A DNA stretch of 64,000 bases, taken from a virus. Location: IMG/VR virus record IMGVR_UViG_3300028844_007948, positions 99,425-163,424 of that record; one strand, 5' to 3'. Shown piece after piece: positions 42,978-59,436 of this stretch. A program made the translations under genes and the position numbers. The notes beneath the pieces are model-generated. The model had not been told where the DNA came from. It saw only the letters and a program-made list of their open reading frames with translations, and did no database searches. Each line of letters opens with the position of its first letter. Positions within the stretch are counted from its first letter, which is position 1.

Positions 42978-43884
42978 TAAAAATATAATTTTGTGCTTTA
43001 GGCATCAAGCATTATTTCAAGGCAGGACAATGTCAACATTTTGTGGGTTAGGAGATATATTAAAAAGCTTTGTTAATGTTTATATATTTTGCAAGCAAAA
43101 TGGAATTGGATTTTATTTAAATTTTGACCATCATTGCATTAAGAAATTTTTAAATTTTAAAAAATTTGATTTTACTAAAACTTTTAAAGACATAGAGGTT
43201 CCAAAGGTAGTAGATTTCGTTAGTGGTTCTAATTTTTATTCTTATTTATGTGAATCTAATGAAGAGAACATTTTTTTAATGACAGATGGTAACAATATAT
43301 CTAATTTCTCTTATGTAGAAAACCTTGAAGCTGATTTTAAAGAAGTTTTTTTAAGCAATGAAAAAATAGCCGACAATATTAAGAATCAATATTCGGAACC
43401 TTATAATGTTTTTCATGCTAGACTGGGAGACGGAAATATGGTATCAAAGGATTTCCTAGATGATTATTATCTAAGAGACTTCTCTCATCAATATTCTGCA
43501 TATGATTGGTACAATTCTATCGATTTTAACTTTTCTTACGATTTTTTGTATAAGAATTTTAGCGAAGAAATAGCTTCTTCTGATTTCATATGTTCAGACC
43601 ACCTTTCTTTTAAAAAATTTATTTCAGAAAGAAGCGAAGTCAGATATGTAGATTTTGAAACAGTGCATTTAGGGCTTAAAAATTCCATGAAAAATATAGA
43701 GAAAACTCTTTATGATTTTTACATTTTATATTATTGCGACAATGCTTTTTCTGTATCCCATTATCCTTTTGGAAAAAGAGCTAGTGGTTTTGCATACTGG
43801 ATAGATAAAATTTTTATAAAAGATTTTAAATATTTTTCTTTTGATTGGCTTTATCAAAATATAAAACCATTAAAAGTCTATTAA
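42970..43884 (+). CDS. Fucosyltransferase-superfamily-like protein
   Basis: 304 aa from the ATG overlapping the GT2 stop. FHARLGDG (H149, R151, G153, D154) resembles the HxRxGD donor motif shared by alpha-1,2/1,6-fucosyltransferases and O-FucT-type enzymes. SHYPFGKRASGFAYWI near 270 resembles their second conserved S/F..(K/R)..S.FA motif. GDP-fucose synthesis genes at 1908-3915 would supply the donor. The overlap with the convergent minus-strand gene is 15 bp. The call rests on two motifs only. Confidence 0.6.
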   Translation: MNNKNIILCFRHQALFQGRTMSTFCGLGDILKSFVNVYIFCKQNGIGFYLNFDHHCIKKFLNFKKFDFTKTFKDIEVPKVVDFVSGSNFYSYLCESNEENIFLMTDGNNISNFSYVENLEADFKEVFLSNEKIADNIKNQYSEPYNVFHARLGDGNMVSKDFLDDYYLRDFSHQYSAYDWYNSIDFNFSYDFLYKNFSEEIASSDFICSDHLSFKKFISERSEVRYVDFETVHLGLKNSMKNIEKTLYDFYILYYCDNAFSVSHYPFGKRASGFAYWIDKIFIKDFKYFSFDWLYQNIKPLKVY

Positions 43885-45015
43885 ATTTTTTCTTTTTAAG
43901 TGTCCTATTCTAGCCCTTAAAGAGTTTATTGATATGCCCATCATTTTAGATATTTCTTTTTGAGGTGTTTTATTTTTTAGCATTTTAGCTAATTTTTGGC
44001 TATCAATTTTAATTTGATTTCTAATCTTTTTTAATAAAGGATACCAACCTTGTTTCACACAAAGAGAAACTATTTGCTTATAGTTATATTTATTTCCAAA
44101 GAAATGTTCGCATAAATCTTTTGATGTGTATTTTTTAGGATTTAAAATTAGGATTTTTCCTATTTTATCTCTGTCTTTTTTTTCTATTGAGCATCTTGGG
44201 GTATTAAAAAAATCCTCGATTGCATTATTACCCTTCGTTACTTTATCGTAAGATTCATCTTTGAGGCTAAATCCATTAAAATGAGCTCTTACTTTATTTT
44301 TTATTTCTATAAAAGATGCGGATACTGCTTGTCTTGTTATGTTCAATTTAATTGCAATTTCATCGTGAGAAAATCCAGACTCTAAATATGCAAAAACTTT
44401 TCTTTGCTCATTCGTCAGTATAGATGAATAATCTTTTATTATTTTTAATATTTTTTTTTGTTTTTCTTTTTCGTCAAAATTATATCCAGCATCTTCAACA
44501 CCCTCTTTTTCCATTATAGCCTCATAAGTACTCTTAAGACCATTTTCTTCATCATAAACGGTTCCATCAACTCTTCTCTTAATATAAGATTTATTAATTA
44601 ATGTCCCTTGGCTCCATTTTATTAGATTTCTAGCATATATAAAAGCACAATGCTTAAAACTCTTTTGATTAAAAATTTTATTATTTTTGATGTATAAAAT
44701 TAAGTTATTTCTTTTTTTTAATAAAGATAAATTAATTTCGCTTGCCAATTCTTCTGCTGACAACAAATGAGTATTATATCTATATTTTGCTATTATCCTT
44801 TCGATGTCTTCCTGAAAATCTTCCAACCATATATTATATTTTTTTATTTGCAATTTCGTAGCCTTGAACTCCTTTTTTTCTAGCCTTTTTTGTGGAATTT
44901 TATATGAGCTTTTATCTACAGCTTCTGTTTTAAAAGTTTCTTTGCTTTTTGGTTTTCCATCTACATCAAAATAATCGTATAAAGTGCCTGGAATGTATGA
45001 TTTTTCTCTTTTCAT
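43870..45015 (-). CDS. Sigma-like HTH protein (copy 2) with extra C-terminal HTH
   Basis: 381 aa. About residues 65-140 recall sigma region 2 (LLSAEELASEINLSLL...FIYARNLIKW). About 201-245 is a region-4-type HTH (LTNEQRKVFAYLESGFSHDEIAIKLNITRQAVS). The last ~90 residues hold a further HTH (TPQKEISKMMGISINSL). It aligns collinearly with the 46029-46703 protein. The ATG overlaps the TGA reached only by the -1 frame of the upstream gene. Could be an alternative sigma factor or a related DNA-binding regulator of phage timing. Confidence 0.62.
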   Translation of the reverse strand: MKREKSYIPGTLYDYFDVDGKPKSKETFKTEAVDKSSYKIPQKRLEKKEFKATKLQIKKYNIWLEDFQEDIERIIAKYRYNTHLLSAEELASEINLSLLKKRNNLILYIKNNKIFNQKSFKHCAFIYARNLIKWSQGTLINKSYIKRRVDGTVYDEENGLKSTYEAIMEKEGVEDAGYNFDEKEKQKKILKIIKDYSSILTNEQRKVFAYLESGFSHDEIAIKLNITRQAVSASFIEIKNKVRAHFNGFSLKDESYDKVTKGNNAIEDFFNTPRCSIEKKDRDKIGKILILNPKKYTSKDLCEHFFGNKYNYKQIVSLCVKQGWYPLLKKIRNQIKIDSQKLAKMLKNKTPQKEISKMMGISINSLRARIGHLKRKNLIDF

Positions 45016-45247
45016 GGGTTAAACGGGGTTTTGAAAGGACTTGGGTATTCTTTTCTCCAATCCACTTCTCCTTTAGTTTCTCTCATCATTTTTTTAAGGT
45101 GAGAATATTTAATATTTAAAATCTTAGCGGCATCAGATCTTACATTGTTAGATTTGGCTAAAGCTTCTTTTATTCTTGGCTTCCAGTATTCTAACCTTTT
45201 ATTCCTTCTGGATAGCCCTGTGTTTTTTATATTTTCGTTTTTTTTTT
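45012..45247 (-). other. A10 slippery site and -1-frame 3' extension encoding a second HTH
   Basis: Coding-strand run of ten A (plus-strand T 45238-45247). Frame 0 stops 9 bases later. A -1 slip continues for 75 codons. The extension holds a second HTH (IKEALAKSNNVRSDAAKILN) followed by EVDWRKEYPSPF, parallel to GLDWWNKEYPYEK in frame 0. It stops at a TGA (45012-45014) that overlaps the ATG of the next gene as ATGA. The joined product would be 343 aa. Alternatives are a real frameshift mutation or a homopolymer sequencing error. Confidence 0.75.
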
Positions 45248-46042
45248 AATTTGTTCTTTTGTTAGATTGAAAGGTACAAATCCATTATCCATCATTCTTT
45301 TTATTACAACTTTTTGGGTCGCAGATCTCTCTTCTTTGGAAACTCTGGGCGGCGGATGTTTTTCATAAGGGTATTCTTTATTCCACCAATCAAGCCCGTT
45401 GATTCTTTTCATCAACTTGTATAATTGGGTTCTACCCATGTTTAGGTATTCAGCTGTCTTTTTTCTATTATTGCCTGATTTTATAAACCCCTCTATTATT
45501 CTTGATTTCGTTTGTGCCATTTCTTTTTTATCCCATTCAACCCATTCTGTACCATTCCATTTCTTACCAATCCTTTTTTCTATTGGTAAATGCTTTCCTT
45601 TTCTATGTAAAGTTGAATAGCTATTTGGACCAGACTTAAATCCAATAGTTTTTAAATGATTATAATTTGTTTTATTGAATCTATTGGTGTATCCATCAGG
45701 TCTTTTTATTTCGAATTTAAATATGTGGTCATTCTCATTTGGATATGCTGCTAATTTTATTTGATCCCAATTTGCAAAAGTTAATTTTTTATTTTCTATT
45801 TTATATCCAGAGTGAAACATAAACCCTTGAATTGATTTTATTTTTATTTTATCTTCTTGTAATCTGAGCTTTAATATTTTTTTTGCATTTTTATATGAAT
45901 TTGATTTTAAAAATGTTTTAAAATCTTTTTCTGATCCATCTTCATATACCTCTGTATACGCAATATTCCAATATTGGTCGAAAGGATAATCAGTTTTCCT
46001 AAAAACCTTTTGGCAGCATGTTTTTTTCCTACCCCTTTTCAC
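45227..46042 (-). CDS. YPNEN-family protein with Fis-type HTH (copy 2)
   Basis: 271 aa in frame 0. Residues ~20-105 form the family unit: FDQYWNIAYTEV, KTFLKS, IKSIQGFMFHS, FANWDQIKLAAYPNEN. About 150-175 holds KWNGTEWVEWDKK. About 185-225 is a Fis/HTH_8-type helix-turn-helix (IKSGNNRKKTAEYLNMGRTQ). It then ends just after an A10 run. Overlaps the upstream sigma-like gene by 14 bp. The family unit recurs at 46700-47311 and 54533-55045. I do not recognise the family. The frame-shifted extension is listed separately. Confidence 0.65.
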   Translation of the reverse strand: MKRGRKKTCCQKVFRKTDYPFDQYWNIAYTEVYEDGSEKDFKTFLKSNSYKNAKKILKLRLQEDKIKIKSIQGFMFHSGYKIENKKLTFANWDQIKLAAYPNENDHIFKFEIKRPDGYTNRFNKTNYNHLKTIGFKSGPNSYSTLHRKGKHLPIEKRIGKKWNGTEWVEWDKKEMAQTKSRIIEGFIKSGNNRKKTAEYLNMGRTQLYKLMKRINGLDWWNKEYPYEKHPPPRVSKEERSATQKVVIKRMMDNGFVPFNLTKEQIKKKTKI

Positions 46043-46703
46043 TTTGAAATAATCTCTCCATAGATTTATAACCTTCTGAAATTTTCTCCCAACATTCGTC
46101 GTTTAAGAAATTATTCTTAATTCTACATTTTAATTTTTCCTCTAACCTTATGACGTTAAAACTTATCGCCTGATGAGTTACTCCCATTTCTTTAGCCATA
46201 TCTTTTTGCTTTTTTCCTTGTAGTAGCATGTCAATTAACTGAACTTCATTTTTAGTCAAATGGTCCGAGTAATTTTTAATTAATTTTAAAAAATATTTAT
46301 GTTTTTGGTTTTTGTCAAAATCGAAGTCATGATTAACCCCCTCAGTATATTCCATCATTTCAAATGAACTTTTCTCCCCCTCTCTTGTTTTGATGACACA
46401 ATCCAATCTCCTTGAATTATATTTATCCTCAACTTTTCTGCACTGATACCAGACAACAGCATTTTTTATAAAACTACAAATTTGGAACCTAAAACATTCA
46501 AAATTGAACTCATCAAACATATCGTTTCTAAAGTTTATAATCTTATCTTTTCTCTTTAAAATGTTGAAGTTTAAATCACTAGCGATTTCTTCAACACTCA
46601 TTAAGTGGTTATCTCTTCTCTTTGACCCTATTATTCTCATTATATCAGGTTGAAATTCTGATAAATATTTGTAAAACTTTTCTTCTTCTTCTTCTTTATT
46701 CAT
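46029..46703 (-). CDS. Sigma-like HTH protein (copy 1)
   Basis: 224 aa, Glu-rich start. Matches the 43870-45015 protein along its length: MSVEEIASDLNFNILKRKD (vs LSAEELASEINLSLLKKRN), FDFDKNQKHKYFLKLIKNYS (vs NFDEKEKQKKILKIIKDYS), and the HTH LTKNEVQLIDMLLQGKKQKDMAKEMGVTHQAIS. The stop and start overlap upstream as ATGA. Region-2/region-4-like arrangement suggests a sigma factor, but no canonical -10-recognition residues can be confirmed by eye. Confidence 0.62.
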   Translation of the reverse strand: MNKEEEEEKFYKYLSEFQPDIMRIIGSKRRDNHLMSVEEIASDLNFNILKRKDKIINFRNDMFDEFNFECFRFQICSFIKNAVVWYQCRKVEDKYNSRRLDCVIKTREGEKSSFEMMEYTEGVNHDFDFDKNQKHKYFLKLIKNYSDHLTKNEVQLIDMLLQGKKQKDMAKEMGVTHQAISFNVIRLEEKLKCRIKNNFLNDECWEKISEGYKSMERLFQSEKG

Positions 46704-47311
46704 ACTAAATTTTTTAATTTTTCTTGGTTTTTCTTGAATGCTTGTTCTGCTAATAGATGGTTAATTTTATACTTGAATAAGTAATTATTTTCATTAGGAA
46801 AGCTGCAGTTTCTAATATTGTACCAATCTTCTATGGACAATCTAGCTCCATCTTTTTGCAAAAAACTAGAATGAAACATGAACCCTTGAATTGATTTTAT
46901 TTGAGAACAATCAGAGTCTTCGTTGAATTTTTCTTCCAATATTCTTTTTGCGAACATTAAAGATCTCGCCTTAATCACTGAAATGTATTTAGTTTCAGAT
47001 TTATCTAAATTTACCACTTCGTAGTACATCTTCCAATATTGGTCGTAACCAAATTTTTTATTTTTAAATTTATTTTGCATATTTATTTTTTTCTTTTTGG
47101 TAAAGCATTTCCTGCATCCCTTCGTTGCCTCTGGCGTGTTTTTGCATGTTCTTAAGTGTTCTCTGGGTAATATAAAGAAATCCCCATGAGTTTTGCATTT
47201 TAATTTTACTTTTGTTTGATTGTTAATATAGACTATGTCATCATAATTGTATCTATCTCCATGAATACTTATAGCTTGTTTAATAAATTCTTCTCTAGTT
47301 TTTTTTTTCAT
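46700..47311 (-). CDS. YPNEN-family protein with N-terminal zinc-binding domain (copy 1)
   Basis: 203 aa. Residues 1-75: F..QA..IHGDRYNYDDIVYIN, LKCKTHGDFFILP, and GCRKCF. This is the HG-Y-Y / C-THG / CxxC pattern of the DUF723-like domain found in homing-endonuclease-associated proteins. Residues ~85-185 are the family unit: YDQYWKMYYEVV, IKSIQGFMFHSSF, SIEDWYNIRNCSFPNENNY. No C-terminal HTH. ATGA-coupled to the sigma-like gene downstream and to the membrane protein upstream. Confidence 0.62.
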   Translation of the reverse strand: MKKKTREEFIKQAISIHGDRYNYDDIVYINNQTKVKLKCKTHGDFFILPREHLRTCKNTPEATKGCRKCFTKKKKINMQNKFKNKKFGYDQYWKMYYEVVNLDKSETKYISVIKARSLMFAKRILEEKFNEDSDCSQIKSIQGFMFHSSFLQKDGARLSIEDWYNIRNCSFPNENNYLFKYKINHLLAEQAFKKNQEKLKNLV

Positions 47312-47544: not shown

Positions 47545-48115
47545 TTTCGAACCTCCCATAAACTTCATATTGGTTAATTTTTCTTTTTGCACATTTTGTT
47601 AAGGCTTGTCTCATCCTGTGCATTGTGGATGAAACAGCTCCGATACTTCTTCCTGTTATTTTTGATATTTCTTTCATTGTTTTCTCTTCTTTATACCACA
47701 ATTTTGCTATTATAGCCATTTGTTCTGGTAATGTTTCATAGCATAAGCTTAAAGCTTTAGATTCTAAATCAAGGTCTTGTTTAGACATGTTTTTGGATTG
47801 ATCCATCATATCCTCTAAAAATTCACTATTAAATGACAATTTATTCCTTTTTGATTTTTGCAAAAATGCCATTATTTGAAATCTCGCTATTCTAAAAGCC
47901 CATGTTTTTAATCCTCCTTTTTTGGGGTCAAACTCTTTTTTCTTCTTGCAAACAATTAAATTTGTTTCTTGTAAAACGTCTAAAGCATTTGGTTTTGATA
48001 TTAAAATAGAAAAAATAAATGAAAATAAATTCTTTTGTATTCTTTCTAATTCGAAATCGAAATCAAAATTATCATCAACCTTTTTCTGTTTATTCTTTTT
48101 TAAAGCTTTTATCAT
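47537..48115 (-). CDS. ECF-type sigma-70 factor, Rhodopirellula/Verrucomicrobium-like
   Basis: 192 aa. Region 2: LFSFIFSILISKPNALDVLQ, ETNLIVCKKKKEFDP, and LKTWAFRIARFQIMAFLQKS. The phrase DVLQETN..(L/V)..K..EFDP is characteristic of sigma factors abundant in Planctomycetes and Verrucomicrobia. Region 4: ALSLCYETLPEQMAIIAKLW and ISKITGRSIGAVSSTMHRM, with Cys before the LP as in that family. It could direct host polymerase to late phage promoters and gives the best host clue in the window. Confidence 0.85.
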   Translation of the reverse strand: MIKALKKNKQKKVDDNFDFDFELERIQKNLFSFIFSILISKPNALDVLQETNLIVCKKKKEFDPKKGGLKTWAFRIARFQIMAFLQKSKRNKLSFNSEFLEDMMDQSKNMSKQDLDLESKALSLCYETLPEQMAIIAKLWYKEEKTMKEISKITGRSIGAVSSTMHRMRQALTKCAKRKINQYEVYGRFENE

Positions 48116-48347
48116 TTATGAATAGTCTATCCTCCCATTTCTGGGAGTAAGGGTTAAATTTTTCTATAGAAATGTCTTGAGCACACAACCTGCGCCTTAA
48201 AAGCATTGATTTGTGGGCTCTTAGAGCTTCGCTTGCACTTTTAGCCATAAAATAATGGTAACTATCTTGGGCAATATGATCTTGGCCAGCGTTGTATCTT
48301 ACCCTATATTCAAATAACTTGTATTCTTTATACTTTTTATTCTTCAT
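48090..48347 (-). CDS. Small basic protein, unknown
   Basis: 85 aa from the ATG that has GGAAAGGGA upstream (in-frame starts to 48398 exist but run into the acidic ORF). YRVRYNAGQDH, DSYHYFMAKSASEALRAHKS and ISIEKFNPY give a strand-strand-helix-strand outline. This loosely recalls the YPNEN unit (Y.V.Y..., ..KTFLKS, helix, I.SI), but too weakly to assign. Overlaps the ECF gene start by 26 bp. Confidence 0.55.
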   Translation of the reverse strand: MKNKKYKEYKLFEYRVRYNAGQDHIAQDSYHYFMAKSASEALRAHKSMLLRRRLCAQDISIEKFNPYSQKWEDRLFINDKSFKKE

Positions 48348-48516
48348 TCCCTTTCCAATATATATCATCAAATAAAATAAATTTAATTTCATCTTCAAAT
48401 TCTACATCAACCCCTACAGGGTCACCTTCTACGACAGGCATATCAGAATCTTTGTAAAAAAATTCTTCTTCTTCTGAAGCTTTTACTAATTGACAGGACA
48501 TTGATTCTATATTCAT
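48337..48516 (-). CDS. Small acidic protein
   Basis: 59 aa, strongly acidic (SEEEEFFYKDSD, VDVEFEDE). It links two neighbouring genes: its ATG overlaps the upstream stop as ATGA and its TAA lies within the first codons of the downstream gene. The tight coupling on both sides supports translation. No family; acidic micro-proteins in phages often bind host DNA-binding proteins, which is speculative here. Confidence 0.55.
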   Translation of the reverse strand: MNIESMSCQLVKASEEEEFFYKDSDMPVVEGDPVGVDVEFEDEIKFILFDDIYWKGNEE

Positions 48517-48774: not shown

Positions 48775-49824
48775 TCAATCGTTCGGAATTGTTTTAATTA
48801 TTTCTCTTGCCATTGTTGGTGGAAAACATTCTCCTAGGACTTTTCTAATAAATCCTTCTGAATATTTATTTTTAAATTTATTTAACAAATCACATGGAAT
48901 CCCACATAAAATAGCCAACTCCATGACCGATAAAACCCTGGCATCAGAATAAGTTCCATCTAACAATAGTCTTCCAGGGTGAACATTGTTTTGGCTTGAT
49001 ATTGCCCCATTGCACATGGTTACAGTAGGTGATGGCTTATCCCAATCTATCCTCTTGTATGTTGTCATAAAGCCTTTAATCCTTCTTCCATCTTTTTTTG
49101 GATAATGAATTTTATTATTAAATGCTGTTTGCCCTGTTGGGGTATTCTTCATCCAAGTTACGTGATTGGAGTTATGTTTTTTTGCATAATGCCAAGGCAT
49201 GTTAGTTTTACCCCCAGATTCCAAGGAAGGCAAATGTCCTATTGCATCTCTTACGGTTACTAATTTTTTACTAGGAGCAGGATGTTCCCATTTCCCATCT
49301 TTAGAAATCAAACCTATAAATCTTTTTCTTGATTGCGGGGTGTTATAGTTTTCAGCGTTTAGTGCTTTGTAATTCATTAACCAAGGCTTTGAAAGCCTTG
49401 ATTCTATATATTTAATTATATTTATAACTTCACCATCTACCTTAATCCATGTGTTTGCCATCCCTGCTACATTTTCTATCAACATGTAATCAGGCTTTAT
49501 TTCATTAAATACATCCATAGCATGTACTATTAAAGAATTTCTAGGGTCGCTACCCGACCTTTTTGCATTAGCCACACTCATTCCTTGGCAGGGGGGCGTT
49601 GCTATTATCAAATTGATATTTTTACTTAACGATTTTTGGCAAATTTCTTTTTTTATATCTTTTTTTGTTACATCTCCAACTATAACATCGGTTTCTGGAT
49701 GAAGTTTTTTGTAAAACATGCACCTACTCTCTTCAATTTCATTTGCTAGGACTATATTAATCCCCGCAGGCTTTAAAAGTACTTCGCCGAACCCAACATT
49801 TGCAAAAAGAGATAATCCGTTCAT
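48775..49824 (-). CDS. DNA (cytosine-5) methyltransferase
   Basis: 349 aa SAM-dependent C5-MTase. Motif I-like LSLFANVGFGEVLLKPAG, motif IV ATPPCQGMS with catalytic C79, motif VI ENV (117-119), motif VIII QSRKR (164-168), and C-terminal motif IX/X (GRLLLDGTYSDARVLSVMEL, GECFPPTMA). All catalytic blocks are present. No cognate restriction gene lies adjacent, so it is an orphan MTase, likely protecting phage DNA from host restriction or marking it for regulation. Confidence 0.92.
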   Translation of the reverse strand: MNGLSLFANVGFGEVLLKPAGINIVLANEIEESRCMFYKKLHPETDVIVGDVTKKDIKKEICQKSLSKNINLIIATPPCQGMSVANAKRSGSDPRNSLIVHAMDVFNEIKPDYMLIENVAGMANTWIKVDGEVINIIKYIESRLSKPWLMNYKALNAENYNTPQSRKRFIGLISKDGKWEHPAPSKKLVTVRDAIGHLPSLESGGKTNMPWHYAKKHNSNHVTWMKNTPTGQTAFNNKIHYPKKDGRRIKGFMTTYKRIDWDKPSPTVTMCNGAISSQNNVHPGRLLLDGTYSDARVLSVMELAILCGIPCDLLNKFKNKYSEGFIRKVLGECFPPTMAREIIKTIPND

Positions 49825-51837: not shown

Positions 51838-52764
51838 ATGAAGGATATATTTTCACATCTAGTAGGGCAAAAAAACGTAAAGAAAAAGCTTAGTTTTTAT
51901 TTAAAGGCTTTTAATAAAACAGGAATCAGTCCTTTTTTAGGTTTTTTTGGAGCTAAGGGTTTAGGTAAAACAGAGTTTGCTAATGCTTATGCTAGAAATT
52001 TGCAAAATGCAGATGGGTCAAAAAGACCATTGTTAGAATTAAATTGTTCAACGATCAAGAATAACGATAGTTTTTTCGAGCAAATCTTTATCCCTCTTAT
52101 TCTTGATAACGAAATCACAGTTTTATTTGATGAAGCTCATGAGTTACCAAATGACTTGACTATGGCTTTATTATCAATTTTGGACACAAGAACCTCTCAT
52201 GTTAGAGAGTTTACTTGGAAAGAAACTCGTTTTCCATTTAATTTTAAAAAGCAAACTTTCTTATTTGCAACAACTGAAAGTGACAAACTCTTTCCACCTT
52301 TAAAAGATAGATTAACCTCTGTTGACTTCGATCCCTATTCTGAGGAAGAATTGGGCAAGATATTATCTTTTGCCATCGAGTGTCCTGTGCATAAAAATGT
52401 ACTTTCTCAACTAAGCTCTGTTGTTAGGGGTAATGCAAGGAATGCAATAATGAGAGCTAAAGATATAAATCTTTATATTGCCTCTGAAGATTTAGACTCT
52501 TTTTCTTTAGCGGATTATCATAGTTTTTGTGACATTTTAGGTATATTGCCTTTTGGAATTACATGCACGGAGAGGCAAATCTTAGAGGTATTGCAAGAGA
52601 AAGGGTCTTGTACCCTCGGAATGTTGGCTGCGAAAACAGGTTTAAGCTCAACTTCATTAAGGGGAGATCATGAAAAATACCTTCTTAAGAAGAATCTAAT
52701 GGAGATTGATGTCAAAAGAAAAATCACTCCACTTGGTAGGAAAGTTGTTAAATCTTTAATTTGA
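51838..52764 (+). CDS. RuvB-like AAA+ ATPase
   Basis: 308 aa. HLVGQKNVKKKLSFYLKA opens as in RuvB. Walker A is G38-AKGLG-K44-T45, Walker B FDEAH (97-101). FATTESDKLFPPLKDR gives sensor/Arg-finger, and RGNARNAIMRAKD matches the RuvB lid. A C-terminal winged helix (ILEVLQEKGSCTLGMLAAKT) follows. No RuvA or RuvC is adjacent. It is followed by a nuclease and probably drives branch migration or loads a nuclease. Confidence 0.82.
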   Translation: MKDIFSHLVGQKNVKKKLSFYLKAFNKTGISPFLGFFGAKGLGKTEFANAYARNLQNADGSKRPLLELNCSTIKNNDSFFEQIFIPLILDNEITVLFDEAHELPNDLTMALLSILDTRTSHVREFTWKETRFPFNFKKQTFLFATTESDKLFPPLKDRLTSVDFDPYSEEELGKILSFAIECPVHKNVLSQLSSVVRGNARNAIMRAKDINLYIASEDLDSFSLADYHSFCDILGILPFGITCTERQILEVLQEKGSCTLGMLAAKTGLSSTSLRGDHEKYLLKKNLMEIDVKRKITPLGRKVVKSLI

Positions 52765-53275: not shown

Positions 53276-53490
53276 AATTTGACGAGCAAACAGACGCTTT
53301 TAGATTCGACCTAGACGACCTTTGCGAAAGGTATTTAGAAGAATTTGATATTAACGTTTTTACAGAAGTTGGAGCTTTGGAAGAAAAAAAACTTGAACTC
53401 TGTAGGATAATAGATATTATAGAGGAAAAAAAGATAGAACTCTTAGGGGAAGATATAGAATTTGAAGTAGATGAAGACTTCTTTGATTAA
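53272..53490 (+). CDS. Small acidic protein
   Basis: 72 aa, highly acidic (FDLDDLCERYLEEFDIN, then LLGEDIEFEVDEDFFD). The ATG overlaps the nuclease stop as ATGA. No family recognised. Confidence 0.6.
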   Translation: MKFDEQTDAFRFDLDDLCERYLEEFDINVFTEVGALEEKKLELCRIIDIIEEKKIELLGEDIEFEVDEDFFD

Positions 53491-53521
53491 TATAATTTTC
53501 TTAGTAACAAACAAACTAAAA

Positions 53522-54163
53522 ATGAAAACAAAAACATATATTACGGCACTTTTGTGTCTTATTTCTAACGTCGCTATTGCTGGTTCAGCAAGCATTGGAT
53601 ATACTTCTGATTATTTTCGCAGAGGTGCATTGCTTTCTGAAGAAGCATTGCAAACCTCCGTAAGTTTAGAAAAAGAAGTTGCAGGATTTTCTCTTTCCGC
53701 AGGGGCTTCAACAAATCAAGCCGTTTCTGTTGGTGAAGATTCTTACATCATTGAAGGTGGAGCATCAGCTCAAGTAGGAGAATTGCTTGATCTTTATGTT
53801 GGTCTTCAGCATTTTGAACAGCGCTCTGATGATGCGACTCTTGAAGTTAATCTAGTCGCTTCATTGAATTCTGTCTTGAGCCCTAGTCTTTCTATATTTA
53901 GAGATACAGATGATGAGCTTTACACTTATGAATTAGGTGTTTCTCATTCTTTTGATGCTAAATTAGCTGATTTAGAACTTTCCGCATTGTATGGAAATAC
54001 TGATCTTACGGAGTCAACAGATGAAGATTATTATGTCCTTGGAGCTAAAGCCTCTAAGAGTTTATCTGAAAGTGCTTCCCTTGAATTGGGGTACAATTAT
54101 GTAGACTCGGACTTGATTAACGATGAATCTATTGTATCTGCATCAGTAGTGTTCTCTTTCTAA
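53522..54163 (+). CDS. Outer-membrane beta-barrel protein with signal peptide
   Basis: 213 aa. MKTKTYITALLCLISNVAIA is a clear signal peptide with cleavage after AIA. About eight alternating amphipathic strands follow (SASIGYTSDYFRRG, LDLYVGLQHFEQ, LSPSLSIFRD, ASLELGYNYVD). The C-terminal aromatic SVVFSF matches BAM-recognised barrel ends. It is therefore destined for a Gram-negative outer membrane, not a virion. Likely acts on host surface or receptor availability. Composition differs mildly (more GC) from neighbours. Confidence 0.72.
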   Translation: MKTKTYITALLCLISNVAIAGSASIGYTSDYFRRGALLSEEALQTSVSLEKEVAGFSLSAGASTNQAVSVGEDSYIIEGGASAQVGELLDLYVGLQHFEQRSDDATLEVNLVASLNSVLSPSLSIFRDTDDELYTYELGVSHSFDAKLADLELSALYGNTDLTESTDEDYYVLGAKASKSLSESASLELGYNYVDSDLINDESIVSASVVFSF

Positions 54164-54189: not shown

Positions 54190-54444
54190 ATGAGTGAAGT
54201 AGTAAATAAAATCAAATGTGCCGTTTGTGGCATTAGCGCCGTACTATTGTCCGTAATTGGACTTCTAGTGCTTTCCCAAGTAGTTTTTGGGGCAAATGCT
54301 GGCATCGATGTCATCGGTAACCTTCAGGGCATTGTTAATGGCTTTGTCGGTCCAGGAGCTAGTCTTGCGGGTGTTATCACGCTTGTATTGATTGTCGCTA
54401 TTCTTGGCAAGCAAACTGATAGTGCTTGTGTAAATAAGAAGTAA
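54190..54444 (+). CDS. Small membrane protein with two TM segments
   Basis: 84 aa. Hydrophobic helices at about 12-32 (CAVCGISAVLLSVIGLLVLS) and 58-72 (SLAGVITLVLIVAILG), with Gly-rich linker GNLQGIVNGFVGPGA. Cotranscribed with the outer-membrane barrel and closed by a strong terminator, so the two may be one cassette. It could be a holin-like or small envelope protein. Confidence 0.6.
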   Translation: MSEVVNKIKCAVCGISAVLLSVIGLLVLSQVVFGANAGIDVIGNLQGIVNGFVGPGASLAGVITLVLIVAILGKQTDSACVNKK

Positions 54445-54469: not shown

Positions 54470-54497
54470 AACCCCCCTCAATAGAGGGGGGTTTTTT
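54470..54497 (+). terminator. Strong Rho-independent terminator
   Basis: AACCCCCCTC and GAGGGGGGTT form a perfect 10-bp stem around a 4-base loop (AATA), followed by TTTT. It closes the outer-membrane/membrane protein cassette. Confidence 0.92.
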
Positions 54498-54532: not shown

Positions 54533-55045
54533 ATGGATTATTCAGAAAAATATCTATTTATAGTGTATTATACAATATATGTAGATAAGTCCAGAGACTA
54601 CAAAACTTTTATAAAATCTAAAGATAGGGATTCAGCTAAAGATGTTTTTACAAAAAAAATCAAAAAAGATTGCAAGGGGCTTTTAATTAAAAATTTGAGG
54701 ATTGTAAAAGTCAACAGAAGTAAATACAGAGGAGTTTCAATATCAGATAAGCAATGGGAGTCCTTAAAAAAAATATCTTACCCTAATTCAAAACATGTAT
54801 TATCAAAATTACCTAAAGATTGTTGGTTCAGAAGACCTGTTTCTAAAAACAGAAATGCAGATGGAACATTTAAGATGGGTAATACTCCTTGGAATAAAAA
54901 TTTTAAAATTAAATTTATTAAAAAAAATAAAAAAGGATGTTTTTCAAGACCTAGAGATGGTATGGGCAGGTTCAGAAAAGGCTGTAAGTGTTTAATGGTT
55001 GGTGTTAAAGATGAAACCTTTAAAAAATTACATTCAAAAAAATAG
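54533..55045 (+). CDS. YPNEN-family protein with NUMOD-like tail (third copy)
   Basis: 170 aa, basic. Residues 8-100: FIVYYTIYVDKSRDYKTFIK, DSAKDVFTKKIKKD, IKNLRIVKV, and SDKQWESLKKISYPNSKHVL. This matches the unit in the 45227 and 46700 proteins (YT.V..DGS..DFKTFLKS; W..IK..AYPNEN). The C-terminal half has DGTFKMGNTPWNK and FSRPRDGMGRFRKG, like NUMOD3-type DNA-binding modules of homing endonucleases. An HNH gene follows two genes downstream. DNA binding is a reasonable inference. Confidence 0.55.
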   Translation: MDYSEKYLFIVYYTIYVDKSRDYKTFIKSKDRDSAKDVFTKKIKKDCKGLLIKNLRIVKVNRSKYRGVSISDKQWESLKKISYPNSKHVLSKLPKDCWFRRPVSKNRNADGTFKMGNTPWNKNFKIKFIKKNKKGCFSRPRDGMGRFRKGCKCLMVGVKDETFKKLHSKK

Positions 55046-55400
55046 CTATAAATCTATATTCAATAAAATATATTCAAATTTTTTAAGCCAAGACTACAAA
55101 GAAGATGAAGTTATTAAATTTTCTTTATCTTTTAGAATTTTTTATGAAAAATATAAAAATTTCGAAAAAAAAGTTCAAACTTCTATTTGGGTTGAAAAAA
55201 ACGAGCATAATTTAATTGAAATTTCTTATGGCAAAAAGTATAATATGTTCAAGGTTCGTAAACCTCTGGAAGGAAAATTTTCAGAAGACTATGTATTCTC
55301 AGAAATAATAAATAAAGACAAATTATCTCAAGATATTATTTATTGCTTAATAATCATTAAAATTATTAGTTTATTAGATGAGAAAAAAAAACAACACTAG
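55011..55400 (+). CDS. Unknown basic protein
   Basis: 129 aa from the ATG (TTG 4 codons upstream possible). Helical, Lys/Ile/Tyr-rich. Overlaps the upstream gene by 35 bp and the HNH gene downstream by 23 bp, which ties the three genes together. No family recognised. Confidence 0.5.
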   Translation: MKPLKNYIQKNSYKSIFNKIYSNFLSQDYKEDEVIKFSLSFRIFYEKYKNFEKKVQTSIWVEKNEHNLIEISYGKKYNMFKVRKPLEGKFSEDYVFSEIINKDKLSQDIIYCLIIIKIISLLDEKKKQH

Positions 55401-55938
55401 AAGGAAAGAAAAAATTTTACTTTTAAGGTCTGAAGGTAAAAGCTATAATGAAATACGAGATATTCTAGGTTGTTCAAAATCTGTTATTTCTTATCATTGC
55501 GGAGAGTATCAAACGGAAAAAAAACGAGTACTAAATCGGAACAAAAGCAAAGACCACAAGTTATCCAGAAAAATAGGAGCATTTAAAAGCAGGATAGCTA
55601 AGGATGGATTCAGAGCGAAATTAAAAACATTTAAGCGTAGAAATCCCAAAAACAGAACTCATACTATTGTTAATAATATTTCTAAAAACTTTACAACAAA
55701 GGATGTTATTGATAAATTAGGTGATGAGCCTAAATGCTATCTTACTGGAACTCCGATAAATCTTCACAATACCGAAACTTATCATTTTGACCATATAATA
55801 CCTACTTCAAAAGGTGGAACTAATGATCTTTCCAATCTTGGTATATGTATCAAAGAAGCTAACAGAGCTAAAGACGATCTTTCCATAAAAGAGCTTATAT
55901 TTCTTTGTCAAAAAATTTTAAATCATTTAACTAAATAA
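55378..55938 (+). CDS. HNH endonuclease with N-terminal HTH
   Basis: 186 aa. An N-terminal HTH (EGKSYNEIRDILGCSKSVIS) precedes a basic linker. About residues 120-165 carry the HNH core: CYLTGTPIN, FDHIIPTSKGGTNDLSN, and NRAKDDLS. The H-N-H-type residues are present. Likely a freestanding homing-type nuclease. It follows a YPNEN/NUMOD-like gene, which may be part of the same mobile unit. Confidence 0.82.
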   Translation: MRKKNNTRRKEKILLLRSEGKSYNEIRDILGCSKSVISYHCGEYQTEKKRVLNRNKSKDHKLSRKIGAFKSRIAKDGFRAKLKTFKRRNPKNRTHTIVNNISKNFTTKDVIDKLGDEPKCYLTGTPINLHNTETYHFDHIIPTSKGGTNDLSNLGICIKEANRAKDDLSIKELIFLCQKILNHLTK

Positions 55939-59359: not shown

Positions 59360-59436
59360 GCAGGAGTAGCTCAGTTGGATAGAGCATCTGCCTTCTAAGC
59401 AGAATGTCGTGAGTTCAAGTCTCACCTCCTGTGCCA
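59360..59436 (+). tRNA. tRNA-Arg (anticodon UCU)
   Basis: Cloverleaf reads acceptor GCAGGAG/CTCCTGT with a G1-U72 wobble, D-arm GCTC/GAGC, anticodon stem TCTGC/GCAGA, and a 7-base loop CTTCTAA (anticodon TCT). The T-arm is GTGAG/CTCAC around TTCAAGT. The CCA end is encoded. It decodes AGA, a codon heavily used in this AT-rich genome, so it likely boosts phage translation. Confidence 0.95.

Follow-up and report, generated by a model that had tools for sequence, protein, structure and literature searches.

Small genes that stand directly ahead of nuclease genes in phage genomes may belong with mobile DNA-cutting elements or with regulators of transcription, and the locus studied here, from an uncultured virus, poses the question of which. 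In the window (the whole stretch of DNA analysed, 64 kb in length), three plus-strand genes form an overlapping trio in which the gene for a small protein, C, comes first and overlaps ORF2, which in turn overlaps a gene for an HNH endonuclease (Table 1), as the initial annotation had described. That annotation had also taken C to repeat a unit found in proteins encoded on the minus strand, had seen NUMOD-like repeats in its tail, and had proposed that the unit is a DNA-recognition module common to regulators and homing elements, the minus-strand regulators having been recruited from homing endonucleases.

Results

When C was compared with its own 163-kb virus record by tblastn, there were two matches only, both of them minus-strand paralogues, which we call B and A (E 6.5e-6 and 1.2e-3). 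We then made a profile from A and B units without any C sequence. This recovered eight of the eight C proteins tested (35-51 bits, E 1.6e-14 to 1.3e-9). Of 2000 shuffled C sequences none exceeded 14 bits, and the next unrelated open reading frame had 7.6 bits. Because the profile finds all eight C proteins and the shuffled sequences score far lower, the conserved unit of ~95 residues in C, homologous to the A and B proteins as first proposed, is no coincidence of alignment.

Iterated searches of IMG/VR found units in more than 20 records. C is carried by nine phages (G000, G002, G003, G007, G009, G010, G011, G013 and G021; G001 is near-identical to G000 and the pair is counted once), eight of which encode A, B and C, and the ninth, G021, B and C. 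Records without C encode either B alone or S, a protein that consists of the unit only (G018-G020). Since all of these relatives are metagenomic fragments of related phages, the counts are not independent. In a tree, which is unrooted, the C proteins form a single clade (support 100/99) on a long branch (1.39). Both C and the HNH are under purifying selection, with dN well below a dS that is mostly saturated. Beyond these records, P0001 had no match in Pfam or PHROG, P0001 and P0002 had none in INPHARED by tblastn, no relatives of C or B were present among 50,697 phage records, and one scan of GTDB species genomes with the unit alignment confirmed none. The unit family is, as judged from sequence, prediction and gene order, a previously undescribed, lineage-specific family of putative regulators in uncultured phages.

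Table 1. Features of the C locus and of the minus-strand regulator genes, with positions in the window.
Feature	Position	Strand	Basis
Sigma-like HTH protein, follows B	43870..45015	-	Pfam, gene order
B-type regulator: unit (about 45701-45979) and Fis/NtrC-type HTH (about 45374-45529)	45227..46042	-	Pfam, structure prediction
Sigma-like HTH protein, follows A	46029..46703	-	Pfam, gene order
A-type protein: nuclease-type zinc-ribbon module (about 47042-47308), then unit (about 46757-47044)	46700..47311	-	PHROG, alignment
Outer-membrane-like protein gene (OMP), conserved upstream marker of the slot	53471..54163	+	ORF; gene order
84-aa membrane protein gene (TM), second upstream slot marker	54190..54444	+	ORF; gene order
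Intrinsic-terminator-like hairpin, between membrane-protein gene and C	54470..54493	+	terminator-like hairpin seen
C protein (P0001), 170 aa: unit and basic FKxG..PWNK tail	54533..55045	+	ORF, tblastn, alignment, profile
Unit of C, residues 5-98, predicted beta-beta-alpha-beta-alpha domain	54545..54826	+	profile; AlphaFold2 pLDDT 84-97
C tail motif GTFKMGNTPWNK, residues 111-122	54863..54898	+	alignment of eight C proteins, motif searches
C tail motif RPRDGMGRFRKG, residues 139-150	54947..54982	+	alignment of eight C proteins
ORF2, small protein, TTG start 54999 or ATG 55011	54999..55400	+	ORF; gene order
HNH endonuclease with N-terminal HTH	55378..55938	+	Pfam, PHROG

Turning to the minus-strand proteins, B is laid out as the unit, a middle segment and then one or two Fis-like HTH repeats, and A is in most genomes the unit alone. 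A sigma-like gene lies directly downstream of A, B or S in 31 of the 31 cases where the contig extends far enough (9 A and 15 B, then a further 4 B and 3 S), at distances of -58 to +215 nt from the unit gene. It adjoins C in none of the nine C genes, and the C genomes still encode sigma-like partners at other loci. In Pfam, 18 of 23 sigma-like partners match GerE and 7 of 23 match Sigma70 region 4, with region 2 detected in 1 of the 23. Since no beta-subunit RNA polymerase was found in the virus record, the likely target of these sigma-like proteins is the host polymerase. The A protein of the present genome begins with a zinc ribbon, a module common in phage endonucleases (phrog_681); the module is probably a late gain, apparently by a recent fusion, since none of the other eight A proteins in the alignment has it. 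Residues 1-165 of A also match Xanthomonas phages with 22-24% identity; most of what this search returned was due to the zinc ribbon, which is widespread. In one genome, G016, an A-like protein (L080 7638-8333) retains a B-type tail and HTH, and from this protein A looks as if it came from a duplicate of B that later lost its HTH.

Unlike the unit, the tail of C (residues 99-170) is predicted by AlphaFold2 to be mostly unstructured, and it is basic (pI 11, with 23 K/R against 4 D/E). Of the two tail motifs, GTFKMGNTPWNK hardly varies among eight C proteins, with G111, T112, F113, K114, G116, P119, W120, N121 and K122 the same in all, and RPRDGMGRFRKG keeps G145, F147 and G150. The conserved motif is GTFKxGxxPWNK, P0001 itself reading FKMGNTPWNKN. 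Among 74 viral open reading frames with FKKGxxPWNKG, 22 matched NUMOD3, 22 HNH_3, 19 HNH and 7 GIY-YIG (the families overlap), compared with 2 for NUMOD3 and 1 for HNH_3 among 74 neighbouring control frames, so that the FKKG..PWNK motif conserved in C is, by these motif searches, enriched in nucleases. In addition, three of four C tails matched the HNH family phrog_1891, weakly but consistently (E 0.0063 to 0.78), the best over positions 100-131 with E 0.0063. The Pfam NUMOD3 profile (PF07460), however, matched 0 of 31 unit-family members, all eight C proteins included, and the tail consensus had no match in INPHARED. What stands of the NUMOD-like repeats is therefore the presence and place of both motifs and their nuclease association, and not a NUMOD3 match. 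In B proteins the unit is followed by GFKKG or GFKSG. A homology between the C tail and the B mid-segment was considered and rejected, being at chance level (hhalign 12.4, with 15 of 100 shuffles as high) and having only FKxG..W in common, and the likeness of the B mid-segment to the nuclease motif was marginal, over 8 columns. The hhalign score of C against the motif was left unused, since the comparison set had been chosen by the motif and the score is circular.

We then compared gene order. An HNH gene lies downstream of C in all nine C genomes: directly and overlapping in G002, G007 and G009, after ORF2 in G000, G011, G013 and G021, and after ORF2 and one further gene in G003 and G010. In the IMG/VR records searched, the C clade alone leads to a nuclease gene, against a sigma-like gene for each of the 31 other unit genes that could be assessed. 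The order in the C genomes is OMP-TM-C-(ORF2)-HNH, with the exception of G021, where OMP-TM is on the far side of the HNH. ORF2 is also found behind a unit-sigma pair in eight genomes without C (G006, G008, G012, G014, G018, G019, G023 and G024). In the four whose flanks can be seen (G006, G008, G014 and G019), the order reads OMP-TM-(DCM/DEQT)-unit-sigma-ORF2. Since C follows the same OMP and TM genes as the unit-sigma-ORF2 cassette, it sits in the slot of the regulator; the sigma gene is missing from this slot and an HNH has come to lie downstream. This suggests descent of C from the regulators, and not of the regulators from mobile elements that cut DNA. As the tree is unrooted and the C branch is long, the direction is drawn from gene order and from breadth of occurrence.

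In the explanation that we favour, and to which we give about an even chance, C is a diverged paralogue of the regulators that has gained a nuclease-type tail and swapped a sigma-like partner for the HNH nuclease. The unit would contact a protein partner, either a sigma-like factor or the host RNA polymerase; in C, the co-encoded HNH would have taken the place of the sigma-like protein, the basic tail would hold DNA, and C would direct or restrain the action of the HNH or couple it to the transcription programme of the phage. The adjacency of C and HNH could also reflect co-expression only, there being a further gene between ORF2 and HNH in two genomes. A somewhat unlikely alternative accordingly takes C and the HNH as mere operon neighbours, with C regulating in trans together with the A- or B-linked sigma-like proteins, which the C genomes do encode elsewhere. 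This would fit the intervening genes, the occurrence of the HNH without C, and the identities among C proteins, which track those of the membrane-protein gene (r 0.72) more strongly than those of the HNH (r 0.57). It fits less well with the constant position of the HNH downstream of C, with the direct overlap in three genomes, with the nuclease-type motif in the C tail, and with a correlation between the C and HNH identity matrices that 15 of 2000 permutations equalled.

The predicted fold bears on what the unit might contact. AlphaFold2 gives the same beta-beta-alpha-beta-alpha arrangement for the units of C and B, followed in B by a confident HTH whose model overlays NtrX (1.2 A over 46 residues). 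Since the B regulators own this separate Fis/NtrC-type HTH for DNA, the idea that the unit itself is the DNA-recognition module is not supported; the unit, a compact fold, is more likely to contact protein than to read DNA. The unit model can be overlaid on T7 Gp2 (4lk0_M; Z 5.6, rmsd 1.8 over 51 residues) and on YkzG epsilon (Z 4.1, rmsd 2.9 over 56 residues), which are described as structurally related (PMC7722741). With the sigma-like partners of the family in mind, the unit might then be an RNA-polymerase-binding domain of the Gp2 or RNAP epsilon type, by which C would inhibit or modulate the host polymerase. We judge this unlikely: every structural match of the unit has Z < 8, Gp2 and epsilon score much as do ribosomal eL20/LX and other beta-beta-alpha-beta proteins of small size, Foldseek returned nothing below E 0.001 from PDB and BFVD, and a common small fold does not show function, permitting at most a polymerase-contact role. 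GIY-YIG and LAGLIDADG folds, which had been suspected, were absent from the listed structure matches of the unit.

Finally, we examined the nuclease. The HNH protein matches Pfam HNH_4 (E 1.5e-7) and, as P0005, phrog_6050 (E 1.5e-31), and its catalytic motif is intact and invariant in eight relatives (D138, H139, N153, N162 and K165). Of 17 records, 13 carry it as a single full-length copy each, among them genomes without C, in which an ECF-type sigma gene precedes the HNH; in G004 there is also a second match, weak and partial. It is on these grounds a single-copy gene of the lineage and not a sporadic homing element. No Rfam intron was found in the window, and no nuclease domain was found in P0001 by Pfam and PHROG or in its family by Pfam. 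By the tests run here, which cover domains, distribution and introns, the C system is not a homing endonuclease. Of 80 HNH loci, 9 have a unit gene close upstream, all of the C type. The notion of a module common to regulators and homing elements therefore holds in so far as the unit lies beside sigma-like regulators and beside an HNH, but this HNH does not behave as a homing element. The proposed origin of the minus-strand regulators in homing endonucleases, with the unit as the DNA-recognition module of these enzymes, is improbable: FKKGxxPWNKG does mark homing-type nucleases, the A protein of the present genome has its nuclease-type zinc ribbon, and WhiA, a regulator with a degenerate homing-endonuclease (LAGLIDADG) domain and an HTH (PMC10714963), provides a precedent, but all non-C units precede sigma-like genes, C is one clade in the unit-sigma-ORF2 slot, about 70 HNH loci without C show no unit within the flanks examined, the HNH is a single-copy core gene, and the ribbon is probably late.

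Several other genes were noted in these regions. A 102-aa protein (marker bbab102; 48090-48398) that precedes the ECF-type sigma gene is conserved across the lineage. A C5-cytosine methyltransferase gene (48775-49824) lies here on the other strand, about 5 kb from the HNH; its position varies in the lineage, and in C genomes such as G002, G009, G010 and G011 it is downstream of the HNH. In G016, a gene judged by eye to be TnpB-like (L089 312-1727) adjoins the HNH gene. The sole Rfam match in the window is a tRNA gene (59360-59433).

Discussion

Taken together, these data define an adaptor-like family without a match in the databases and genome scan described above; in this lineage of uncultured phages, the family is paired with sigma-like proteins one-to-one. 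They also document, through gene order, a case in which the partner of a regulator paralogue changes from a sigma-like protein to a nuclease.

A bolder version of the favoured explanation, and a long shot, would make unit adaptor and sigma-like protein a two-part transcription switch. One copy of the adaptor would have taken an HNH nickase as its new partner, which would couple the nicking of DNA to the transcription programme of the phage. Late transcription in T4, which is linked to nicks and to the sliding clamp, is a parallel in outline. Alongside this parallel we cite the gene for an AAA clamp-loader-like ATPase (phrog_168) just upstream of the C operon (51838-52764), relatives of which lie near C in other genomes.

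Among known systems, the closest in parts are the HNH families PHROG 6050 and PHROG 1891 and the homing-type HNH and GIY-YIG nucleases with NUMOD3, through the phrog_6050 match of P0005, the FKKG..PWNK tail of C and its weak phrog_1891 match. Unlike these nucleases, C has neither a nuclease domain nor a NUMOD3 match, and the present HNH is single-copy, kept across the lineage and without a detected intron. T7 Gp2 and YkzG have a small beta-beta-alpha-beta arrangement like that of the unit, but with weak Z scores and no sequence similarity, and the unit has ~30 further residues with a conserved PN motif. The genes that follow A and B resemble the phage sigma-like factors of PHROG 1740 in matching sigma region 4 or GerE profiles; they differ in that Pfam detects region 2 in so few of them and in being preceded by a unit protein that matched no described family, and C perhaps works like an adaptor of such factors. 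WhiA resembles the B type in being a transcription regulator in which a small alpha/beta domain and an HTH are linked. No LAGLIDADG match was among those listed for the unit, however, and gene order suggests the opposite direction here, offering a view of phage traffic between regulators and nucleases that would run counter to the WhiA example.
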